Shown here in pieces: positions 2,380-29,667 of a stretch of DNA of 34,317 bases. The notes under the pieces were generated by a model. That model had not been told where the DNA came from. It saw only the letters and a list, made by a program, of their open reading frames with translations, and ran no database searches. The translations under genes were made by a program, and so were the position numbers. Every line of letters starts with the position of its first letter. The first letter of the stretch is position 1. Origin of the DNA: a virus. The stretch spans positions 1 to 34,317 of IMG/VR virus record IMGVR_UViG_3300023184_000010; one strand, 5' to 3'.

Positions 2380-4653
2380 GTGCTGGACATAAAAAATATC
2401 ACCGTTGATGACATCAACCAAAACAAGAAAATCAACGCCAACTTTGTGCGTATGAAAAATCTAATGGATGTGAAGATGGCTTCATATCTGCGTTACCTAG
2501 GAACCAAGAATGCTATCAATAGAGCAAGCGATTATCATTATCTGTGCCTTGCTGTCACTGATTCTACTGCGCCTGTAAACGGCATAGATTATATTCACCC
2601 TAGTGTGAAACCAGTAGTGGATTACGCTACTGCGGTAATTTCCAAAGGCCTAATACCCAACGGTGAAGTCAACTTTGAATTCATTGCTGATGGCGAGGAC
2701 GATGAATCGGGCGCAAGACAAGCATCAAACATGGTCAGCCAAGTTATCAACGAACAGAATGATCCGCACTTTATACTCGAGCGTTGGATCATGGATGCCA
2801 ACATGCACAAGAATGGCATGATGATGGTTATGCCTGTGCGTGAACCTATCACACGCTATGTGGAAACAGCGGGCACAGCAGATGAACTTCGTGCATTTGA
2901 ACAACAAGCAAGTGAAAGTGGCCTAACAGCCCTGCGCCAAAGCCGTAGACGCACCAGTGTGAACCTAGAGGCTGTGATGGCCGAAGTTCAACAACTGCTG
3001 GGCGAGCACAAACAAGAACATGTGCAGGGCATGATTGATCAGACTATTCAAAGTCTTGGTGAAGAACAGGACATGGAAGCCATGATGTCCACCATGCAAG
3101 AAATGCAAGCGTCGGATGTGGAGGGTCAACAAGACATTCTCAATGACGCCATCAACCGCAACACAATCTACACAGCCAAATACAAACTCACTGGCTACAA
3201 TTTAAGAATCAAGTTCAACCCCATTGCCCAGCACTACTGGATCTGTGATCCCACAGTGGCTGAAATGCGTGACCAACCCTTCTGTGGCTACTATGACCCT
3301 ATGACCATTCAAGAAGCCGCTGAACTGTATCCAGGCATTGACCTAGATGAGTTCTCAGTACATGCCGAATACAACATGAACGGTGCGTACCAAGCAGGTT
3401 CAGTACTAAACAACTTGGCCATACACGCTAGAGACAGTGTGCCTGTTATGGGCATACCGGTCAACAGTTCTGCATCAGCAGATCCTTATTCAAGACAAGT
3501 GTCAATTGTCACAGTATGGAACAGATACGACATTGATGGTGATGGTGAATTAGAGTTGGTGGAGTTAATTTACTCTGGCACATATATTATTTCAGCCCGC
3601 GAAGTGGAATTTATCCCAGTGGCCAATATGTGTCCAAAACCCTTGCCCGGCAACTTCTATGGTATGAGCATTGCAGAGAGTGTGATCCCAATGCAGGAAT
3701 ACAACACCAGTGCCGCACGAGCAGAAATACAATTGGGCTTGTTAACAGCCACACCGCGTATTGGTGTCAAGCCCGATCGATTAGACTTTGAGATGTTGCA
3801 GGATGGTGAGAGTGCAATCTTTATCCTAGACTCTAAGTTTGATCCCACCAAAGACATCTACCAGTTGCCTCCTCCCTCGGGCAACCTGCAGTTCCTGGAA
3901 GTGGCTATGAATCGTATCCAACAAGATACAATGGCCATGGTAGGAATGACCACGCCACAAGATGTGTTCAACCCAGAAGTGATGGCTCCTGGCAATTCAG
4001 GCATTAAACTTCAGATGGCCTTGACACCTAACCAGATCATTCAAGACAACACAGTGCGTAATTCAGCAGATGGCCTAAAAGAAGCCATATGGTTGGTCTG
4101 GCGTACCCTGATACAATACGGTGATGACTACGGCGTCAAGAAACTGGCAGCCAAGTTCCACCCAGACTCCAAGCCTGTGTTCATTGACTACCAGGCCTGG
4201 GACGACATGAACTTCTGTGACCGCAAACAGATCCATATGGAATTGGCGCTGGGCATGATGAGCCAAGAAAATGCACTGGGTCGCTTGCAGATTATTCAGA
4301 AGTGTCAGACAGATCTATACACAATGACACAGGGCATGGCACAGTCTGGCACACTAACACCAGAAATCTACAACAAGGTCAAGAAACCTTTTGCAGATAC
4401 CCTGTATGTGCTGGGTGTGAAAGAAGCCGACACCTACTTGCCAAGTGATGATGAAGTCAAACAAATGATCACTCAAGGTCAAGAGGCAGCCAAAGGCCGT
4501 GAACCTTCAGCAGAAGACAAGAAGCGCCTGGCTGATGCTGGACTGGCACAGGCCAAGACTGAACAGATCAAGGCTGAAATGACCGGAGAAGATGCAGAAT
4601 CGCAACTGGACTTCATGGCAGTTGCTGCCGGCAACCCCAAGGTATACAACTAA
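2380..4653 (+). CDS. Portal protein, P22-type (757 aa)
   Basis: The length is close to the P22 portal (725 aa) and the gene follows terL and precedes the scaffold and capsid genes, the standard head-gene order. Features include PSVKPVVDYATAVISKGLIPNGE-type text in the N-terminal clip/wing region, a central run of beta-rich text, a conserved-looking stretch GNFYGMSIAESVIPMQEYN with MVGMTTPQDVFNPEVMAPGNSG, and a Gln/Ala/Lys-rich C-terminal helix (from about residue 690) resembling a portal barrel. The start is GTG at 2380 with AGGA upstream. It would form the dodecameric ring at the DNA-entry vertex. The assignment rests on position, length and sequence character. Confidence 0.88.
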   Translation: MLDIKNITVDDINQNKKINANFVRMKNLMDVKMASYLRYLGTKNAINRASDYHYLCLAVTDSTAPVNGIDYIHPSVKPVVDYATAVISKGLIPNGEVNFEFIADGEDDESGARQASNMVSQVINEQNDPHFILERWIMDANMHKNGMMMVMPVREPITRYVETAGTADELRAFEQQASESGLTALRQSRRRTSVNLEAVMAEVQQLLGEHKQEHVQGMIDQTIQSLGEEQDMEAMMSTMQEMQASDVEGQQDILNDAINRNTIYTAKYKLTGYNLRIKFNPIAQHYWICDPTVAEMRDQPFCGYYDPMTIQEAAELYPGIDLDEFSVHAEYNMNGAYQAGSVLNNLAIHARDSVPVMGIPVNSSASADPYSRQVSIVTVWNRYDIDGDGELELVELIYSGTYIISAREVEFIPVANMCPKPLPGNFYGMSIAESVIPMQEYNTSAARAEIQLGLLTATPRIGVKPDRLDFEMLQDGESAIFILDSKFDPTKDIYQLPPPSGNLQFLEVAMNRIQQDTMAMVGMTTPQDVFNPEVMAPGNSGIKLQMALTPNQIIQDNTVRNSADGLKEAIWLVWRTLIQYGDDYGVKKLAAKFHPDSKPVFIDYQAWDDMNFCDRKQIHMELALGMMSQENALGRLQIIQKCQTDLYTMTQGMAQSGTLTPEIYNKVKKPFADTLYVLGVKEADTYLPSDDEVKQMITQGQEAAKGREPSAEDKKRLADAGLAQAKTEQIKAEMTGEDAESQLDFMAVAAGNPKVYN

Positions 4654-9135: not shown

Positions 9136-12100
9136 ATGAGTGGAAATTCAACAAGTTTATACAGCACAAGCACAAGCAACATCACGCTGTCAAGCAACAA
9201 CTTGACCACGCTGTATCCTGGCGGTTCAGGCACAGTGACACCAGCACAACCCTACGGCAACGCCAATGTGGTAGGCCTACTGGCAGCCGGCACAGATGGT
9301 GCCAACACAGTGGCCAATATTGTGGCCACAGGCAATATTACAGGCAATTACTTCATTGGTAATGGATCACAGTTAACAGGTGTTGTTGCTGTCAGTGCCA
9401 ACACAGCCAATACTGCTGTGACCGTGACTGGCAATGCACAGCCCAATATCACCAGTGTAGGCACACTCACAAGTTTATCCAGCACAGGCAATGTCACCGG
9501 AGGCAATCTGCGGACCGCAGGTGCGGTCAGTGCCATTGGCAATGTCACAGGCAATTACTTCCTGGGTAATGGTAGCCAACTCACAGGATTACCAGCCACA
9601 TATTCCAACGCCAATGTGGTTTCGTTAATGGCCAACTTTGGTTCAAACACCATATCAACCACAGGCAACATCACCGGTGGATTTATCTTAGGTAATGGAT
9701 CACAGTTGACAGGATTACCTGCCACCTACTCAAACGCCAATGTGACTTCATTGTTGGCCAATTTTGGCTCAAATGCCATATCAACCACAGGCAATATCAC
9801 AGCCGGCAATGTGATAGCAGGTGCTGTGAGTACTCCTACTGTGTACAGTCAAGGTATGGCTACACAAGGTTATGACTATGTGCAGATGCAATACAGCAAT
9901 AGTGTTGCACTGCCTGTAACACCATATGACATAGGCACAGGATCATGGTTCTACCTGGATGCAGGTGGCGGTGTATTCCAATCAAACACAACAGGCACAC
10001 TCCAAACAGTTGTACAAGGCAATGATGGTAGTGTTAGTGCCACGGGCAATATCACAGCACCTTACTACTTTGGTAATGGCTCACAACTTACAGGTTTACC
10101 TGCCACATATTCAAATGCCAATGTCACCAGTTTGCTGGCCAATTTTGGATCAAATACTATATCAACCACAGGCAATATCACAGCAGGCTATGTTGTGGGC
10201 AATGGTTCGTTGCTGACCAGTATTACCGGTGCCAATGTCACAGGTTCAGTGGCACAGGCCAACACAGCCAACACAGCCAACGCGGTAGCAGGCGCCAATG
10301 TCACAGGTCAGGTGGCCAATGCTCTAGTTGCTGGCACAGTTTATACCAATGCACAACCTAATATTACTTCCCTTGGCACACTTTCAAGTGTAACTGTGAC
10401 AGGTAATATCACAGGTGGTAATTTGTTGACCACAGGTGTGGTATCAGCCACAGGCAACATTACCACGCAAGGCTTTTTTATAGGCAATTTCCAAGGTAAC
10501 ATCACAGGCAACTTGACAGTTCCTGGCTCAAACACCGAAGTAATCTACAACAACTCAGGCAATGCCGGAGCCAGTTCAGGATTTACATTTAATCAAGCAT
10601 CAAATGTGGTCACAGTGGCAGGCAATATTGCAAGTGGTAATATTTCAACCACAGGCAATGTCACAGGCAATTATGTGATTGGCAATGGTTCATTGCTGTC
10701 CGACATCACAGGCGGCAATGTCACAGGATCTGTAGCACAGGCCAATCAAGCCAACACAGCCAATGCTGTGGCAGGTGCCAATGTGAGTGGTCAAGTGGCC
10801 AATGCCCTGGTAGCAGGCACAGTTTATACCAACGCACAGCCCAACATTACTAGTGTTGGCACACTCACAAGTTTGTCAACCAGTGGTAATATCTCAGCCG
10901 CAGGCAATATTCAAGGCAATGTGTTCATTGGCAACGGTGCTGGATTGACCAATATTCCTGGCGGCAACATTGTGGGTGGGTATGGCAACGCCAATGTAAG
11001 CAATTTCCTTGCTACAGGATTTGGTTCAAACACCATAAGCACAACAGGCAATATTTCTGCAGGCAACATCTTGCTGGGTGATCTAGTGGGTGCTGGCAAT
11101 GTCACAGCCACTGGCAATATCACAGGTGGGTTATTTACGGGTAATGGTTCTGGACTAAGTTCAATCACAGGTGCCAATGTCACAGGCACAGTGGCCAATG
11201 CCACCTTTGCCACCACAGCAGGCTCAGCAGGCACAGCCAACACAGCAGTCACAGTCACAGGTAATGCACAGGCCAATATCACCAGTCTAGGCATATTGAC
11301 CAGCCTTTCAGTGAGTGGCAATACCACCAGCGGCAATGTGTTGACTTCAGTGGTGCAAGCCACAAATTCAGCAGGTTTGAGTCTAAAGAATGCATCCGGC
11401 ACAACACAGGCCAGCATGGGTGCCGGTGGTGGTGACAACTTTGCCATCAATGTCAGCACCAACCTGAATGGCAACAATGCTCAGATTGATATTTCACCCA
11501 CAGGCACTGGCCATGTGCATATCAAACCCACCGGCACCGGTGCTGTAGAAATTGCACCCACCAGCACTGGTTCAATCAACAACATGATCATTGGCAATAT
11601 CACACCGGCTGCTGTTTCAGCAACCACTGTGAGTGCCACTGGCAACATCACCGGCAACTACTTCATTGGTAATGGATCTCAACTGACAGGATTACCTGCT
11701 GGTTATTCAAATGCCGATGTGGCCACATTTTTAGCCAACTTTGGCAGCAATAGTATATCAACAACAGGCAATGTCACAGCCAGTTATTTTACAGGCAATG
11801 GATCATTGCTCTCAAGTATTACAGGTGCCAATGTCACAGGCACAGTGGCCAATGCCACCTACGCACTCAATGCCAATGCCGCAACCTATGCTGATCAAGC
11901 CAATTACGCAAATATTGCAAACAGTGTAAGTGGCTCAAATGTGAGTGGCCAGGTGGCCAATGCTCTAGTTGCTGGCACAGTGTACACAGCCGCACAACCC
12001 AATATCACAAGTGTTGGCACATTGACTAGTGTTGCTGTCACAGGCAACGCCACAGCAGGTAATCTATTGGCAGGCGGTGTAGTTTCAGCCACAGGCAATG

Positions 12101-14904
12101 TCACAGGCAATTACTTTATTGGTAATGGATCACAATTGACAGGCATTGTTGCCAGTTCCAATGCGGCTGGTTCCAACACACAAATACAATACAACAATGC
12201 CAATGCATTTGCTGGCAATGCTGGCTTGACATTCAATCAGACCACAGGCAATGTAGCCTTGGCCAATCTTGTGGTCAGTCCAGGAGTGGCAGGCAATGCC
12301 AACGCAGGCAACAATGCTGTGATCATAAACACAGCCACTCCGTTCAATGGTATATCAGCCACAGCCACCGGCTTGCAAGCAGGTCAAACTGTGTATGGCA
12401 CCGGCAACTATGGCAACCTGGCAGTGGGGGGTCTGCTGTTTAGCACACCCAAAGGTGCAAGAAATCTGTTCTGGGATAGTGCCAATGTGTCGGATGGATC
12501 AAATGTGGGCGTGCGATACGGCGGCCTGGCCGTGCCCTCAACAGTTACCTTGCAAGGTAATTTGACCAGCAACAACAATTTCATACGAGCATTTATCACT
12601 ACTTTGCAAGTGGGTGGCGGAGCCTCGGCCAACACCTTTACCAATGTCGGTCAAGGTGGTCAAGCCCTGGGTGCAGCCGCTTTTGCCACCACCATAGGTG
12701 AGGGTCCTGGAACGGTGACTCCACGAGTGGGCAATACCACTGTGCGAGATACTGTGAGTCTCAACAGTCAGATCACCGTTTGGAATGGTTCAAATGTGAG
12801 CAATGCTGTGTCAGCAGTATATAATTTTACCAATAGCACTGGTAATATTACCAATGCCTTAGGCGTGGTCACGCAATTTAGTGGCACAGTAAACACCACA
12901 CCAACCAATGTGGTGGGATATTACATGCCAACCAACACAGGTTCATTGGCAGGATTCAATTCAGCCAATGCCATGCGAGCGGCCACCAATTATTACTTCC
13001 TAAAGAATGATGATGCAGTGGCACAGACACAGTTGGGCAGTTTGAGAAGTTACAATGAGTTCCGTTATGATACTGCCACCACAGGCAACATAACCCTTGA
13101 CAAAAACAATGCACAGGTGCAATACATAGCACCCACTGCCAATGTGACCATAGATGGCTATGCCAATATGGTTACCAGTTTGAGTGATAGTGTAAACACG
13201 GATCAAGAAATTGACACACTCACAATCCTGGTGCAACAAGGTGCAACTCCTTACACAGTCACACTACCAACAGGTGCCACATATCAATATGCAGGCAACA
13301 TTTCAACTGTGCCTGCAGTGGCCAACTCAAGAAGCATACTAACAGTAGTGGCTGCCAATGTGTCTGGCACTGTGAACTATTTTACCACGGTTCAGAGTGA
13401 TCAAGCAGTTGTTTCCAGTTATGGCGACGCCAATGTAGCCACATTCCTGGCTGCGTTTGGTTCAAATACCATAAGCACAACAGGCACAGTCACAGCAGGC
13501 AATGTCACCGGAGGCAACATACTCACAGGTGGCATAATGTCAGCCACAGGCAATGTCACAGGCAATTACATCCTGGGCAATGGTTCGCAGTTGACAGGTA
13601 TCACAGCCACAGCCAACGCTGCCGGATCAAACACACAGATACAATACAACAATGCCGGTGCGTTTGCTGGCAGTGCCAACTTGACATTTGACAACACCAC
13701 AAATACCCTGGCAACTACCACGGTCACAGCCACTGCCAACATCAACGGTGCTGCTTTAAGCATCACAGGCAACACAACAGGTTCCAACATATTCAGTTAT
13801 CCCACCGCCAATGGTGTTATTGTCAACAGCACAGTGGCCAGCAATGTCAACGCCACAATAAATCCTTATAGAATTGTTTATGGCAATGGTTTCCGTGGTG
13901 ATTATGGTGCCAATGCTGATCCAGCCAACTTCAATAGAGGCAGTCTATTTGCGGCCATTGGCACTCAGGTGCTGGCCAACGCAGATACAACCAACTCATC
14001 CAGATTATTGACATCAAGTTATTTCATGGATCTGAACCAAGGTGCCAACATCACCAACACCAACAAACGCTATTCAGCCGGTGGATTTTATTCACAGATA
14101 GGTAATGGTAACATCACACTCACAGCCGCTAGTGGAACCAATATGGGTGCTGTTCTCAACGGTGGCACACAAACGCTCCTAATTGGTAACAGTGCCAATG
14201 CCAACCTAGGTGCTGTGAGTGTGAGTCATGCGGCAGCATTGAATTCAACTTTTATTGCCAGCACAGGAGGCACTGTGGGCAATGCAACAGGTGCCTTGAT
14301 CACCCTGCAGACAGCGGCTGCCAATGCTTCATTCACCACCAGCCAGATTGGCTACACAGCACAATTCCTGGGCACCACAGGAACACCAGCAGGCAATGTG
14401 ATTGGTTATTACATGCCATCAAATGTCACAACAAACTATGGATTTAATTCAACCAATCTAAACCGTGCAGCCACCAATTATTACTTCCTTAAGAACGATG
14501 ATGATGTGGCACAAAATCAACTGGGTTCACTCAGAGCCTATCACACATTCCAGGCCACAGGAACCACCACAGGCACCTGGAACATTGACAAGGCAAACGG
14601 TCAAGTTCAAGCCATCAGCACAACGGGTAATGTCACCATTGGATCATACACCAACTTTGTGACCACTGCCAATGATGGCACCAACAATGATTCACAAACA
14701 GACACAGTCACACTGATCATTGAACAAGGTGCAACACCTTACACAGTCACAATGCCCACTGGTAATGCCGCAATCAGGTATGCTGGCAATGTCAGCACAG
14801 TGGCCAACACAGCAAATTCAACCACAATGATTGCGATTGTTGCATATCGTACTGCGGCCAACGCCACAAGTTATCTAACCACAATTTCACCAGGATTTGT
14901 CTAA
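9136..14904 (+). CDS. Giant tail fibre / adhesin with GNGSQLTG repeats (1922 aa)
   Basis: Largest gene in the genome. Residues about 60-1040 are built from a degenerate repeat centred on GNGSQLTG (at least 12 copies of the GNGS/A-x-L core), alternating with TTGNITAGN, ANVTGxVA and LVAGTVYTxAQPNITS segments, a Gly/Asn/Thr pattern suited to a trimeric beta fibre. The C-terminal half carries two related modules (about residues 1255-1420 and 1753-1922), each with GYYMP, ATNYYFLKNDD, QLGSLR and EQGATPYTVT-type text. These may be receptor-binding or shaft-capping units. AAGGA precedes ATG 9136; the stop overlaps the next start (TAATG). No signal peptide or enzyme motif is seen. Confidence 0.85.
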   Translation: MSGNSTSLYSTSTSNITLSSNNLTTLYPGGSGTVTPAQPYGNANVVGLLAAGTDGANTVANIVATGNITGNYFIGNGSQLTGVVAVSANTANTAVTVTGNAQPNITSVGTLTSLSSTGNVTGGNLRTAGAVSAIGNVTGNYFLGNGSQLTGLPATYSNANVVSLMANFGSNTISTTGNITGGFILGNGSQLTGLPATYSNANVTSLLANFGSNAISTTGNITAGNVIAGAVSTPTVYSQGMATQGYDYVQMQYSNSVALPVTPYDIGTGSWFYLDAGGGVFQSNTTGTLQTVVQGNDGSVSATGNITAPYYFGNGSQLTGLPATYSNANVTSLLANFGSNTISTTGNITAGYVVGNGSLLTSITGANVTGSVAQANTANTANAVAGANVTGQVANALVAGTVYTNAQPNITSLGTLSSVTVTGNITGGNLLTTGVVSATGNITTQGFFIGNFQGNITGNLTVPGSNTEVIYNNSGNAGASSGFTFNQASNVVTVAGNIASGNISTTGNVTGNYVIGNGSLLSDITGGNVTGSVAQANQANTANAVAGANVSGQVANALVAGTVYTNAQPNITSVGTLTSLSTSGNISAAGNIQGNVFIGNGAGLTNIPGGNIVGGYGNANVSNFLATGFGSNTISTTGNISAGNILLGDLVGAGNVTATGNITGGLFTGNGSGLSSITGANVTGTVANATFATTAGSAGTANTAVTVTGNAQANITSLGILTSLSVSGNTTSGNVLTSVVQATNSAGLSLKNASGTTQASMGAGGGDNFAINVSTNLNGNNAQIDISPTGTGHVHIKPTGTGAVEIAPTSTGSINNMIIGNITPAAVSATTVSATGNITGNYFIGNGSQLTGLPAGYSNADVATFLANFGSNSISTTGNVTASYFTGNGSLLSSITGANVTGTVANATYALNANAATYADQANYANIANSVSGSNVSGQVANALVAGTVYTAAQPNITSVGTLTSVAVTGNATAGNLLAGGVVSATGNVTGNYFIGNGSQLTGIVASSNAAGSNTQIQYNNANAFAGNAGLTFNQTTGNVALANLVVSPGVAGNANAGNNAVIINTATPFNGISATATGLQAGQTVYGTGNYGNLAVGGLLFSTPKGARNLFWDSANVSDGSNVGVRYGGLAVPSTVTLQGNLTSNNNFIRAFITTLQVGGGASANTFTNVGQGGQALGAAAFATTIGEGPGTVTPRVGNTTVRDTVSLNSQITVWNGSNVSNAVSAVYNFTNSTGNITNALGVVTQFSGTVNTTPTNVVGYYMPTNTGSLAGFNSANAMRAATNYYFLKNDDAVAQTQLGSLRSYNEFRYDTATTGNITLDKNNAQVQYIAPTANVTIDGYANMVTSLSDSVNTDQEIDTLTILVQQGATPYTVTLPTGATYQYAGNISTVPAVANSRSILTVVAANVSGTVNYFTTVQSDQAVVSSYGDANVATFLAAFGSNTISTTGTVTAGNVTGGNILTGGIMSATGNVTGNYILGNGSQLTGITATANAAGSNTQIQYNNAGAFAGSANLTFDNTTNTLATTTVTATANINGAALSITGNTTGSNIFSYPTANGVIVNSTVASNVNATINPYRIVYGNGFRGDYGANADPANFNRGSLFAAIGTQVLANADTTNSSRLLTSSYFMDLNQGANITNTNKRYSAGGFYSQIGNGNITLTAASGTNMGAVLNGGTQTLLIGNSANANLGAVSVSHAAALNSTFIASTGGTVGNATGALITLQTAAANASFTTSQIGYTAQFLGTTGTPAGNVIGYYMPSNVTTNYGFNSTNLNRAATNYYFLKNDDDVAQNQLGSLRAYHTFQATGTTTGTWNIDKANGQVQAISTTGNVTIGSYTNFVTTANDGTNNDSQTDTVTLIIEQGATPYTVTMPTGNAAIRYAGNVSTVANTANSTTMIAIVAYRTAANATSYLTTISPGFV
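9330..12180 (+). repeat. Degenerate coding repeats of the fibre shaft
   Basis: Repeated DNA such as the GGTAATGGATCACAGTTAAC-type segment recurs about every 120-500 bp, encoding the GNGSQLTG unit. Copies differ mostly at third positions and keep the reading frame. This region is prone to recombination and assembly collapse. Confidence 0.8.
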
Positions 14905-27822: not shown

Positions 27823-27916
27823 AATCAAATCCAAAAAATCGGGGTGTCAGTGGCGTGGATCGGTATAGGACGATCAAAAATGGCGGTATTTGATCTAACT
27901 TGAAAGGACTCAAATT
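27823..27916. other. Divergent intergenic region between HNH-like and 47-aa genes
   Basis: About 94 bp separate the leftward start (27822) and rightward start (27917). GAAAGGA (27902-27908) is the ribosome site of the rightward small gene. I see no convincing -35/-10 pair in either direction; the leftward strand has only an isolated TATACC. Confidence 0.5.
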
Positions 27917-28060
27917 ATGAAACAACCTATCACTTTACCTACAGGCTTCATTTTTAGAGGGAGACCCGATCTGTCTCTGCGTTTAACATCAGTGGCGCGA
28001 TTGCCATTGATGTCAGCACCACTGACAATGTTATTTAGCAACCAGTTGCATTTTACCTGA
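27917..28060 (+). CDS. Small hypothetical protein (47 aa)
   Basis: ATG 27917 is preceded by a good GAAAGGACTCAAATT ribosome site. The peptide MKQPITLPTGFIFRGRPDLS continues with a basic, Leu-rich helix-like tail and ends at TGA 28058-28060. No family is recognised. The opposite strand of its 3' end holds a CTAAATA box (28032-28038), so the region may have a dual role. Moderate support: ribosome site and open frame only. Confidence 0.45.
   Translation: MKQPITLPTGFIFRGRPDLSLRLTSVARLPLMSAPLTMLFSNQLHFT
28032..28038 (-). promoter_or_regulatory. Leftward TAAATA-type box upstream of HNH-GNAT operon
   Basis: On the minus strand the text is GCTAAATAACA, the same extended form as at 2348 and 31368. 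It points toward the HNH-like gene start at 27822, about 200 nt downstream, and would give a long leader antisense to the 47-aa gene. No nearer start codon with a 5-nt spacing is present. Confidence 0.4.
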
Positions 28061-28065
28061 AAATG

Positions 28066-28094
28066 TTGCTTTTTTTTGGTTTGTCATATATACT
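28066..28094 (+). promoter_or_regulatory. Sigma70-type promoter for the 28115 gene
   Basis: TTGCTT (28066-28071), 17-bp spacer containing a T run, then TATACT (28089-28094). Start site expected near 28101, with AAGGG before ATG 28115. This is close to host consensus (4/6 at -35 and 5/6 at -10) and suggests early expression of the CxxC protein. Confidence 0.7.
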
Positions 28095-28114
28095 ATTACA
28101 AAGGGCAAAAATTA

Positions 28115-28567
28115 ATGAAACATAGCGTTTCCATTTCTGATCGACATTTACATCACCAAGTTGATGTTGTGGTCACACCCAACTTAAATCACTATGCCAA
28201 ACTGGTATGTAGAGATTGTAATGGTGCATGGGTGCAATGGTTATCTCGCGACGCTACTGAACAATTGATTGGCCCACAGGCAACCAAACAACAAAAAACC
28301 ACACAGGCAGACTGGTCAACCACACATGCCAAAGAACGCCAATTCTACACAAGTTATCAGCAACCCACTTTGAAATTACCAAGAACACCCACACAACTCA
28401 TACGCGATCGACTGGCATTGACAGGATATTCACGCTATAATGGCAACAGTATCTATACTATTCCAGCAGATTACTTACAGGCATTATTAGACACCAACAA
28501 GATCACACGCAAGGAAGACAGGCATGAAATTCAGGCAGCAATCCGATTACAACAAACCGGGACTTAA
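28115..28567 (+). CDS. CxxC zinc-knuckle-like accessory protein (150 aa)
   Basis: ATG 28115 (MKHSVSISDRHLHHQVDV) follows AAAGGGCAAAAATTA and a sigma70 promoter; the frame is open further upstream, but that part overlaps the promoter. HYAKLVCRDCNGAWVQWLS (26-44) contains a Cys32-x-x-Cys35 knuckle with a pattern seen in small phage and cyanobacterial proteins of unknown role. A C-terminal helical domain follows (about 88-150) with RTPTQLIRDRLALTGY and IPADYLQALLDTNKITRKED. Possible nucleic-acid binding; it could be a transcription or replication accessory, but that is inference. Confidence 0.75.
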   Translation: MKHSVSISDRHLHHQVDVVVTPNLNHYAKLVCRDCNGAWVQWLSRDATEQLIGPQATKQQKTTQADWSTTHAKERQFYTSYQQPTLKLPRTPTQLIRDRLALTGYSRYNGNSIYTIPADYLQALLDTNKITRKEDRHEIQAAIRLQQTGT

Positions 28568-29040
28568 CCTAGTCCTCCTGAGATTTGACCCAGTAGTATA
28601 GCATAGAAGTGACCATGAACCTCGCTACCTATACCAACAGTTGGACATGCCAAGAGTAAGGAATAAACATCTCCTGTGATGAACAGGAACAAGACTGTGT
28701 GCAAAGCAGTTACGCCAATCAGCCGTGATTGAGTTAAAATTGACGATGATAAACGGTACCCAAACACGCACTCACCTGCGTGGCAGGGTTCCTTTTGGCA
28801 AGAATGATTACGGTAATGAATGATATATGATAACAACAACAACTAGTCGGTCAGCGTCTAAAGACGCCGCCCACACAGATGTCAAAACCACTTCGTGGTC
28901 TCCTTTGACATCTATTGACCTGTTGCACATCTCAAAGAAAGAGATGCAATCAATGAGCACAAGAGACGAAGTCGATGGTGCGAATGACTCAACGCAAGTT
29001 GAGTCCCAAAGGCTCGAGTTACGACTCGATAAATTACACT
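28568..29040 (+). ncRNA. Chain of at least eight stable hairpins: candidate structured RNA or origin
   Basis: No confident gene covers 28568-28826. Hairpins in order: TCCTGT/ACAGGA (28672-28688); CAATCA-GCCG-TGATTG (28716-28731); CACGCA/TGCGTG (28765-28782) inside GGtACCC/GGGTtCC (28755-28792); GCGTC-TAAA-GACGC (28854-28867); GATGTCAAA/TTTGACATC enclosing ACCAC-TTC-GTGGT (28878-28912); TTGC..ATCTC/GAGATGCAA (28923-28949); GACTCAAC-GCAA-GTTGAGTC (28986-29005); CGAGT-TACG-ACTCG (29015-29028). Two have GNRA- or UNCG-like tetraloops. Different stem sequences with preserved pairing suggest a selected structure. Roles compatible with this: regulatory or decoy RNA, 5' leader of the 29058 operon, or a replication origin in a genome with no replication genes. 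No known RNA family is recognised and no tRNA fold is present. Confidence 0.5.
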
Positions 29041-29045
29041 TGTAA
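28827..29045 (+). CDS. Doubtful 72-aa ORF over the hairpin chain
   Basis: ATG 28827 opens a Ser/Thr/Lys/Glu-rich frame (MITTTTSRSASKDAAHTDVK onward) ending at TAA 29045, 12 nt before the next gene. There is no good ribosome site (GATATATG before it). The sequence consists largely of inverted repeats, which explains its low-complexity peptide. Either a short disordered protein or, more likely, a chance frame in a structured RNA. Confidence 0.3.
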   Translation: MITTTTSRSASKDAAHTDVKTTSWSPLTSIDLLHISKKEMQSMSTRDEVDGANDSTQVESQRLELRLDKLHL

Positions 29046-29057
29046 AAAGGAAATCAA

Positions 29058-29285
29058 ATGAAAACTTATCAACCCGAAAAAAACAACACTGAATTTTGGC
29101 GTCGCATTCACAGTCTGCCTGTGGACACTGAACAATCCTTGCAGGAATTCTGGCAATTGATACATGAACCTGGTGCTGAATATTCGGCTGGTATACTGGA
29201 ATACATCCAAAGAGAATGCCGTTTCATGGGAATCACCACGGAAGAATTTTGGAATCGCCCCAAGGACAACAATGCCACAATTTAA
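29058..29285 (+). CDS. Small hypothetical accessory protein (75 aa)
   Basis: ATG 29058 has a strong AAAAAGGAAATCAA ribosome site. The peptide is acidic and Trp-rich: MKTYQPEKNNTEFWRRIHSL, then SLQEFWQLIHEPGAEY and TEEFWNRPKDNNATI. It is predicted helical, with a repeated EFW motif (EFWRRI, EFWQLI, EFWNRP). Its stop overlaps the next gene's start by 14 bases. No family is recognised; small acidic early proteins in this position can be host-takeover factors, but nothing here shows that directly. Confidence 0.75.
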   Translation: MKTYQPEKNNTEFWRRIHSLPVDTEQSLQEFWQLIHEPGAEYSAGILEYIQRECRFMGITTEEFWNRPKDNNATI

Positions 29286-29667
29286 ATATCAAGATCGCCT
29301 GGAGATGCCCGCAAGGCCAGGTCGTAACTATGCCACTGTGTATGTCAAGCAACGCCAGGGCGAGCGTGATCGCTTGCACACCTGGCTGCGCCAAGTGGGT
29401 TCAGACATTGCCACTGTGTGTTCGCGCAGACCAGATCTAGAAACTTGGTTTTGCAATCCTGACCCCAAATTTCGCAAGCGAGAAACTGCTGGCTATTACT
29501 CACCTGCTGAACTGCTACACCATATGTTGAGTCAACTGGATGACAACAAAGACATTCCAGAGGCTATGCTGGGTCGTTGGAATCGCTGGTGTCGGGACAC
29601 GGAATGGGAGATTGACATGGTGGCTGATCAGCCACCAACTCCGGGCTTTCACGCTTTTGTTGTTTAA
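29272..29667 (+). CDS. Hypothetical accessory protein (131 aa)
   Basis: ATG 29272 (MPQFKYQDRLEMPARPGRN) has CAAGGACAACA upstream and overlaps the previous gene by 14 nt; the longer frame from 29164 would overlap by 122 nt and is rejected. The body is mixed: ATVYVKQRQGERDRLHTWLR, SRRPDLETWF, RETAGYYSPAELLHHMLSQL, then a Trp-rich helix GRWNRWCRDTEWEIDMV. No catalytic motif recognised. The last 104 bases overlap a leftward frame (29564-29776) and contain a perfect 20-bp palindrome. Confidence 0.75.
   Translation: MPQFKYQDRLEMPARPGRNYATVYVKQRQGERDRLHTWLRQVGSDIATVCSRRPDLETWFCNPDPKFRKRETAGYYSPAELLHHMLSQLDDNKDIPEAMLGRWNRWCRDTEWEIDMVADQPPTPGFHAFVV

Follow-up and report, generated by a model that had tools for sequence, protein, structure and literature searches.

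The question raised by the locus at positions 28560-29050 is whether a chain of short hairpins with unlike stems serves as a signal in DNA or RNA, belongs to a protein or has no function at all. The locus lies in the window, which is the whole 34,317-nucleotide stretch analysed and corresponds to the phage contig IMGVR_UViG_3300023184_000010. This contig carries a 127-bp terminal repeat and is therefore probably complete and circular. It encodes a T4-type large terminase and an SU10-type portal and capsid protein, and its nearest cultured phages are distant, with terminase matches approximately 31-35% identical. No replication genes were recognised among the phage proteins searched, in agreement with an earlier note on this sequence, and a search for tRNA and tmRNA found none. 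Comparison of the hairpin locus with 50,697 phage records gave no match, and no cultured relatives were found for the locus or for genes A and C, described below. The locus was compared across 80 terminase relatives and across 31 loci that surround gene C, which lies downstream, the relatives, as well as the window, being metagenomic contigs.

The chain of hairpins described by the earlier note at 28634-29028 was present as placed and reaches slightly further, with the loops and the mutually unlike stem sequences as reported. Folding of 28560-29050 on the plus strand gave -139.1 kcal/mol, whereas dinucleotide-shuffled sequences gave -114.0 +/- 5.6 (z -4.5; none of 100 as low). This energy lies well below that of shuffled sequence, contrary to the possibility, raised in the same note, that folding would prove no better than shuffled; the minus strand gave z -3.8. 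Six perfect hairpins (stem of at least 6, loop 3-8) were counted where 0.58 were expected, the maximum in 500 shuffles being 4. The chain consists of two unlike halves, a strand-specific left block (hairpins at 28672-28688, 28693-28711, 28716-28731 and 28758-28789) and a right block folding on both strands (28854-28867, 28877-28913 with an inner hairpin at 28887-28899, 28928-28946, 28957-28981, 28986-29005 and 29014-29029), whilst 28560-28660 contributes little (z -0.5). When local pairing was scanned across the genome, by regression on GC content without shuffles, the right block proved well structured (approximately -2.6 sd) but was not the top-scoring stretch. Assignment of the chain to a known RNA family was rejected, as neither the window nor any relative scanned had an Rfam match at the gathering score.

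The right block (28845-29029) is an array of unlike mini-hairpins with similar folding on both strands (z -3.3/-3.5). Loops of the types cGNAg, cGNNAg, cGNABg, cCNNGg and gCNNGc are unusually stable in DNA. The hairpin ACCAC-TTC-GTGGT at 28887-28899 has, on the minus strand, a GAA loop of the cGNAg type, and is the only one of the two window triloops of that type; the plus strand hairpin GACTCAAC-GCAA-GTTGAGTC at 28986-29005 has a cGNNAg loop and a stem identical in the relative L004. Several other window loops (TAAA, TACG) fall outside the DNA-stable types. L004 is 84% identical to the window over 27900-29025 and approximately 76% identical over the right block where alignable. The outer pair of hairpin 28887-28899 is A-T in the window and G-C in L004, a double change also seen in hairpin 28957-28981 as AT>CG; the last hairpin (29014-29029) has one pair doubly changed and is otherwise weakened, and hairpin 28928-28946 is largely lost. 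An ORF on the plus strand (28827-29045) spans the right block and is open over 72 codons, as expected if a small protein were coded here and the hairpins were incidental. However, the frame is closed in L004, in which most of the stems still pair, some after compensatory changes, the reverse of the peptide being kept and the pairing not, and folding of the ORF was stronger than in synonymous-codon shuffles (z -3.7, 0/300). The coding reading was rejected on the broken frame and is very improbable; the ORF is probably not a gene, or is a decayed remnant.

The left block (28649-28800, plus strand) is a conserved structured element whose fold, taken over 28649-28790, is significant on the plus strand only (z -2.4, compared with -0.04 on the minus strand). 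It differs from L004 by one mismatch in 152 nt, with an identical run of 134 nt, and L004 was its sole relative in viral contigs, no third being found. The small gene preceding the hairpins (28115-28567, plus strand), encoding 150 aa with a CxxC pair, had no family match and is 85% identical in L004, with 66 of 450 positions differing; of the changed codons, 24 are synonymous and 23 non-synonymous. Its structure model was of too low quality to be informative. With two sequences compared, the identity of the left block may reflect either strong nucleotide constraint or recent exchange of a short tract. The only stem change in L004 in this two-sequence comparison converts G-C to G-U, so that pairing survives on the plus strand only. 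The left block is probably a second element, an RNA structure on the plus strand within the early transcript, and the proposal of a structured ncRNA or leader fits this block. A peptide reading of the left block, with stops read through, gave peptide-like frames but was rejected, the start codon being absent in L004 and no frame being favoured.

Upstream of the hairpin array and separate from it is a leader element with three covarying helices (27898-28056, plus strand), present at 20 loci (the window, L004, L005, L014, L021, L035, L048, L065, L073, L091, L097, L099, L100, L101, L118-L122 and L127). Among its 10 seed sequences, pairing held in 90.7% of cells compared with 71.9% when shuffled, and slid controls did not exceed 50%; double changes occurred in 16/23 pairs. 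A covariance model recovered the non-seed loci L073, L048, L118-L122 and L127 at E <=6e-13 and gave values near 1e-6 for L021 and L065; over all 20 loci, in an alignment that had been fitted to this model, double changes occurred in 20/23 pairs. One G-U pair is invariant, which points to RNA of the plus strand. The leader had no Rfam match and represents a new structured-RNA candidate, better supported as such than the hairpin array itself. It sits upstream of a promoter-like TTGCTT-17-TATACT (28066-28094, plus strand), a match to the sigma-70-like consensus only, which is kept in L004, L005 and L014. An extended -10-like sequence, TGCTATACT, was also observed on the minus strand at approximately 28594-28602; it carries a T>C change in L004 and may be due to chance.

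In relatives the conserved right-hand neighbour of the locus is gene C (29272-29667, plus strand in the window), and the stretch between the conserved leader and gene C is, judging from the sequences compared, a swap site. L100 and L101, for example, contain unlike cassettes there, flanked by very similar neighbours. In nine loci (L005, L035, L072, L091, L065, L014, L101, L120 and L121, the last two nearly identical) the cassette carries gene A with hairpins. Gene A is the first early gene, encodes 223-258 aa where complete, and is only approximately 20% identical in some pairs. Its hairpins sit in the first 100 codons, which encode an N-terminal linker predicted to be disordered (pLDDT <50 for residues 1-83). 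The gene A fold had no reliable PDB match and the single strong match was to an uncultured phage protein; lipocalin-like matches were disregarded, as the model had a mean pLDDT of only 50. One array position reads CAGTGAC-TTC-GTCACTG in L005, GCGAC-TGC-GTCGC in L035 and GAGAC-TGC-GTCTC in L072. Spacing, loops and a CTCCTTTG spacer are similar in the window right block and these arrays, with no significant alignment between them, and in both the window and L004 the array stands outside any convincing gene. We infer that the window array and the gene A arrays are the same element.

Other structured stretches were observed at this locus in relatives. One of approximately 400 nt is conserved in either orientation (L118 3300-3690, plus; L073 3195-3645, minus; L122 1285-1712, minus; L130 3525-3850, plus), with a consensus fold in which 25/86 pairs are doubly changed among the four sequences, and is possibly a large ornate RNA. 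L021 contains a very stable non-coding fold without an Rfam match (4165-4545, plus; z -8.1) and L099 a multibranched fold with a 13-bp closing stem directly behind the leader (1150-1325, plus; z -5.8). A hairpin AGATCTC-(3-5 nt)-GAGATCT recurs, mostly upstream of gene C, at L021 4522, L073 3150, L118 3732, L119 1137, L122 1249, L130 3882, L133 3895 and, as AGATGTC/GACATCT, L134 370. In L038, L042, L048, L097 and L099 look-alikes of a primase and a VapE-type helicase, judged by eye, lie behind the leader and occupy the position of the window's hairpins.

The contribution of the peptide to pairing in gene A was examined by shuffling synonymous codons with the amino acids held fixed. N-terminal halves folded better than these shuffles in seven loci, with z of -4.7, -3.1, -3.6, -2.7, -3.1, -2.4 and -1.9, values ranging from -4.7 to -2.4 across L005, L035, L072, L091, L065 and L101 and being weaker in L014 (-1.9), whereas C-terminal halves showed no excess pairing (z +1.5 to -1.7). 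With DNA energies most gene A z values grew larger, and L121 and L120 gave -2.6 and -1.9 on the plus strand and -1.3 and -0.8 on the minus strand; signals were weak in L014 and L120. The peptide of the hairpin region is not conserved. Stem cells in five arrays, a small set aligned partly by hand, comprised 163 Watson-Crick, 3 GU, 5 AC and 5 other combinations, with 9 double-change columns; in a selected RNA helix GU would be expected to be commoner than AC. Loops of array hairpins with stems of at least 5 were also compared with the remaining hairpin loops of these loci. Triloops were of the cGNAg type on one strand in 12/17 cases in arrays and 1/186 elsewhere, and tetraloops of the types cGNNAg, cGNABg, cCNNGg or gCNNGc in 12/20 and 8/227, respectively. 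Merging homologous hairpins left 6/11 triloops and 8/15 tetraloops (P 4e-8 and 3e-7, values that are optimistic as the classes were named post hoc). A further hairpin, GCGAGA-N7-TCTCGC (L035 3665 and 3893, L091 3027 and 3234, L005 4618, L072 229 and L065 5201), has its loop in the opposite orientation in L035 to that in L005, L072 and L091, and is present as an additional in-frame copy in both L035 and L091, a pattern that looks like hairpin inversion and copying.

These data show that the hairpins exceed chance and that their pairing exceeds what the peptide accounts for; the stems differ from one another and carry double changes, the loops are biased, and arrays recur at a single locus. The hairpin string probably serves as a signal in DNA or RNA and not as a protein segment, since the array is intragenic in most relatives and many of its loops are of DNA-stable types. 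We read the right block as a nucleic-acid element for which DNA mini-hairpins acting at the start of replication or transcription are the likeliest explanation, one that we hold tentatively and with less than even confidence, and we infer that it works as DNA. A string of unlike stems with stable loops would then be kept by this phage group behind an early promoter. Loops of the cGNAg, cGNNAg and gCNNGc types allow very short hairpins to arise where DNA is supercoiled or single-stranded, and it is the pairing, not the sequence of the stem, that is kept. Host factors (SSB, primosome or polymerase) could enter by recognising these structures, as with the promoter hairpins of phage N4, when replication or early transcription starts. 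The broader proposal, in which a double-stranded DNA phage group without recognised replication genes recruits host machinery via an array of unlike DNA mini-hairpins with cGNAg/cGNNAg loops, located behind the early promoter, mostly concealed in a disordered coding linker and serving as multiple extrudable or single-strand entry sites, is speculative and on balance unlikely. An origin or primosome-loading site, as suggested previously, would agree with the DNA-type loops seen in the right block and with the absence of recognised replication genes; against it, cumulative GC skew, the check proposed for an origin, has no turning point at 28.6 kb (a weak test in a 34-kb phage), and L099, with its primase/helicase-like genes, is also structured there. 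A replication origin at the hairpins is not demonstrated by these data.

An RNA role and template switching are serious rivals to the DNA reading. As RNA, the array might be a processing or stability element of the early transcript, a decoy or a means of pacing gene A translation, and its location downstream of a conserved promoter-like site, the strand specificity and single G-C to G-U stem change of the left block, and the structure present at the same locus in L099 and L021 are all consistent with this. However, the right block and gene A arrays fold equally well on the minus strand, stems show no GU excess, and only one GNRA and one UNCG-type loop were found among 20 tetraloops read on the gene strand, leaving an RNA role for the array rather unlikely. 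Alternatively, the hairpins may have no function, the disordered linker tolerating hairpins that template switching or palindrome correction makes and maintains; this has been proposed for the coding palindromes of Nematomorpha mitochondria (PMC6649704). Arms are near-perfect and co-change between Watson-Crick pairs without wobble intermediates, and the GCGAGA-N7-TCTCGC hairpin has its loop inverted in L035 and is copied in frame in L035 and L091; such covariation and loop inversion are equally expected from template switching. Set against this, arrays occur at the same locus in gene A copies only approximately 20% identical, the bias towards stable loop classes far exceeds that of other hairpins of the same genomes, and the process itself is read from sequence, not observed, so that we regard this explanation as doubtful though quite conceivable. 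That arrays recur at one locus across deeply diverged phages favours a function, an effect that a mutational hot spot could mimic. The coding arrays offer a clean test system in which pairing can be altered with the peptide held constant; if kept only by template switching, they would be a compact natural record of that process within a coding gene, and if they act as DNA they would hint at the way in which phages that lack replication genes engage the machinery of the host at the outset.

Several known systems bear comparison with the DNA reading and its rivals. In the phiX174 n'-pas and the G4 origin, host factors read one or several hairpins in single-stranded DNA. Those are few, sequence-defined sites, unlike the arrays, and are likened to them by description only. 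Structured stretches also occur in aquatic phages as GOLLD-like large phage or lake RNAs, from which the window and scanned relatives differ in having no Rfam match at gathering score. Rickettsia palindromic elements (RPE) are small palindromes located in-frame within genes. RPE and REP elements (PMC3733652) share a repeat sequence whereas array stems are unlike, and the array is therefore not a dispersed repeat family. In Nematomorpha mitochondria, where template switching has been proposed for coding palindromes, there are likewise perfect inverted repeats in coding genes, with co-changing arms and both gain and loss; these palindromes reach 284 bp and are scattered over conserved protein regions (PMC6649704), whereas the array hairpins measure 10-20 nt, show a loop bias and gather at a single locus, in a disordered linker but outside genes as well.

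The N4 virion RNA polymerase promoter hairpins have a sheared G:A loop pair, are extruded in vivo with gyrase and SSB, and tolerate any non-conserved stem bases provided that these are paired (PMC4496689). The arrays share with them short stems, a phage early region and 3-nt G-N-A loops (PMC4496689), non-conserved stem bases that vary while pairing holds, and a GNA sequence that in gene orientation is mostly on the template strand. They differ in being many tandem hairpins, mostly within a coding linker, with a sigma-70-like promoter-like site upstream and no virion RNA polymerase recognised. Such an enzyme was looked for among the large virion proteins and not found, none having an RNA polymerase family or PDB sequence match, a search that a diverged enzyme could escape. 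Within the virion gene cluster, a 1922-aa protein (9136-14904) matched nothing beyond a chlorovirus glycoprotein repeat, weakly and below threshold. Shared bases around the hairpins or a start site at fixed distance, as in N4, are absent, both stems and flanks differing within an array. Because no virion RNA polymerase and no common promoter sequence around the hairpins were found, membership in the N4 type is not claimed and N4 serves as a working model only. Were the arrays to function as DNA, physiological DNA hairpins, of which N4 offers a rare case, would be known in tandem arrays as well.
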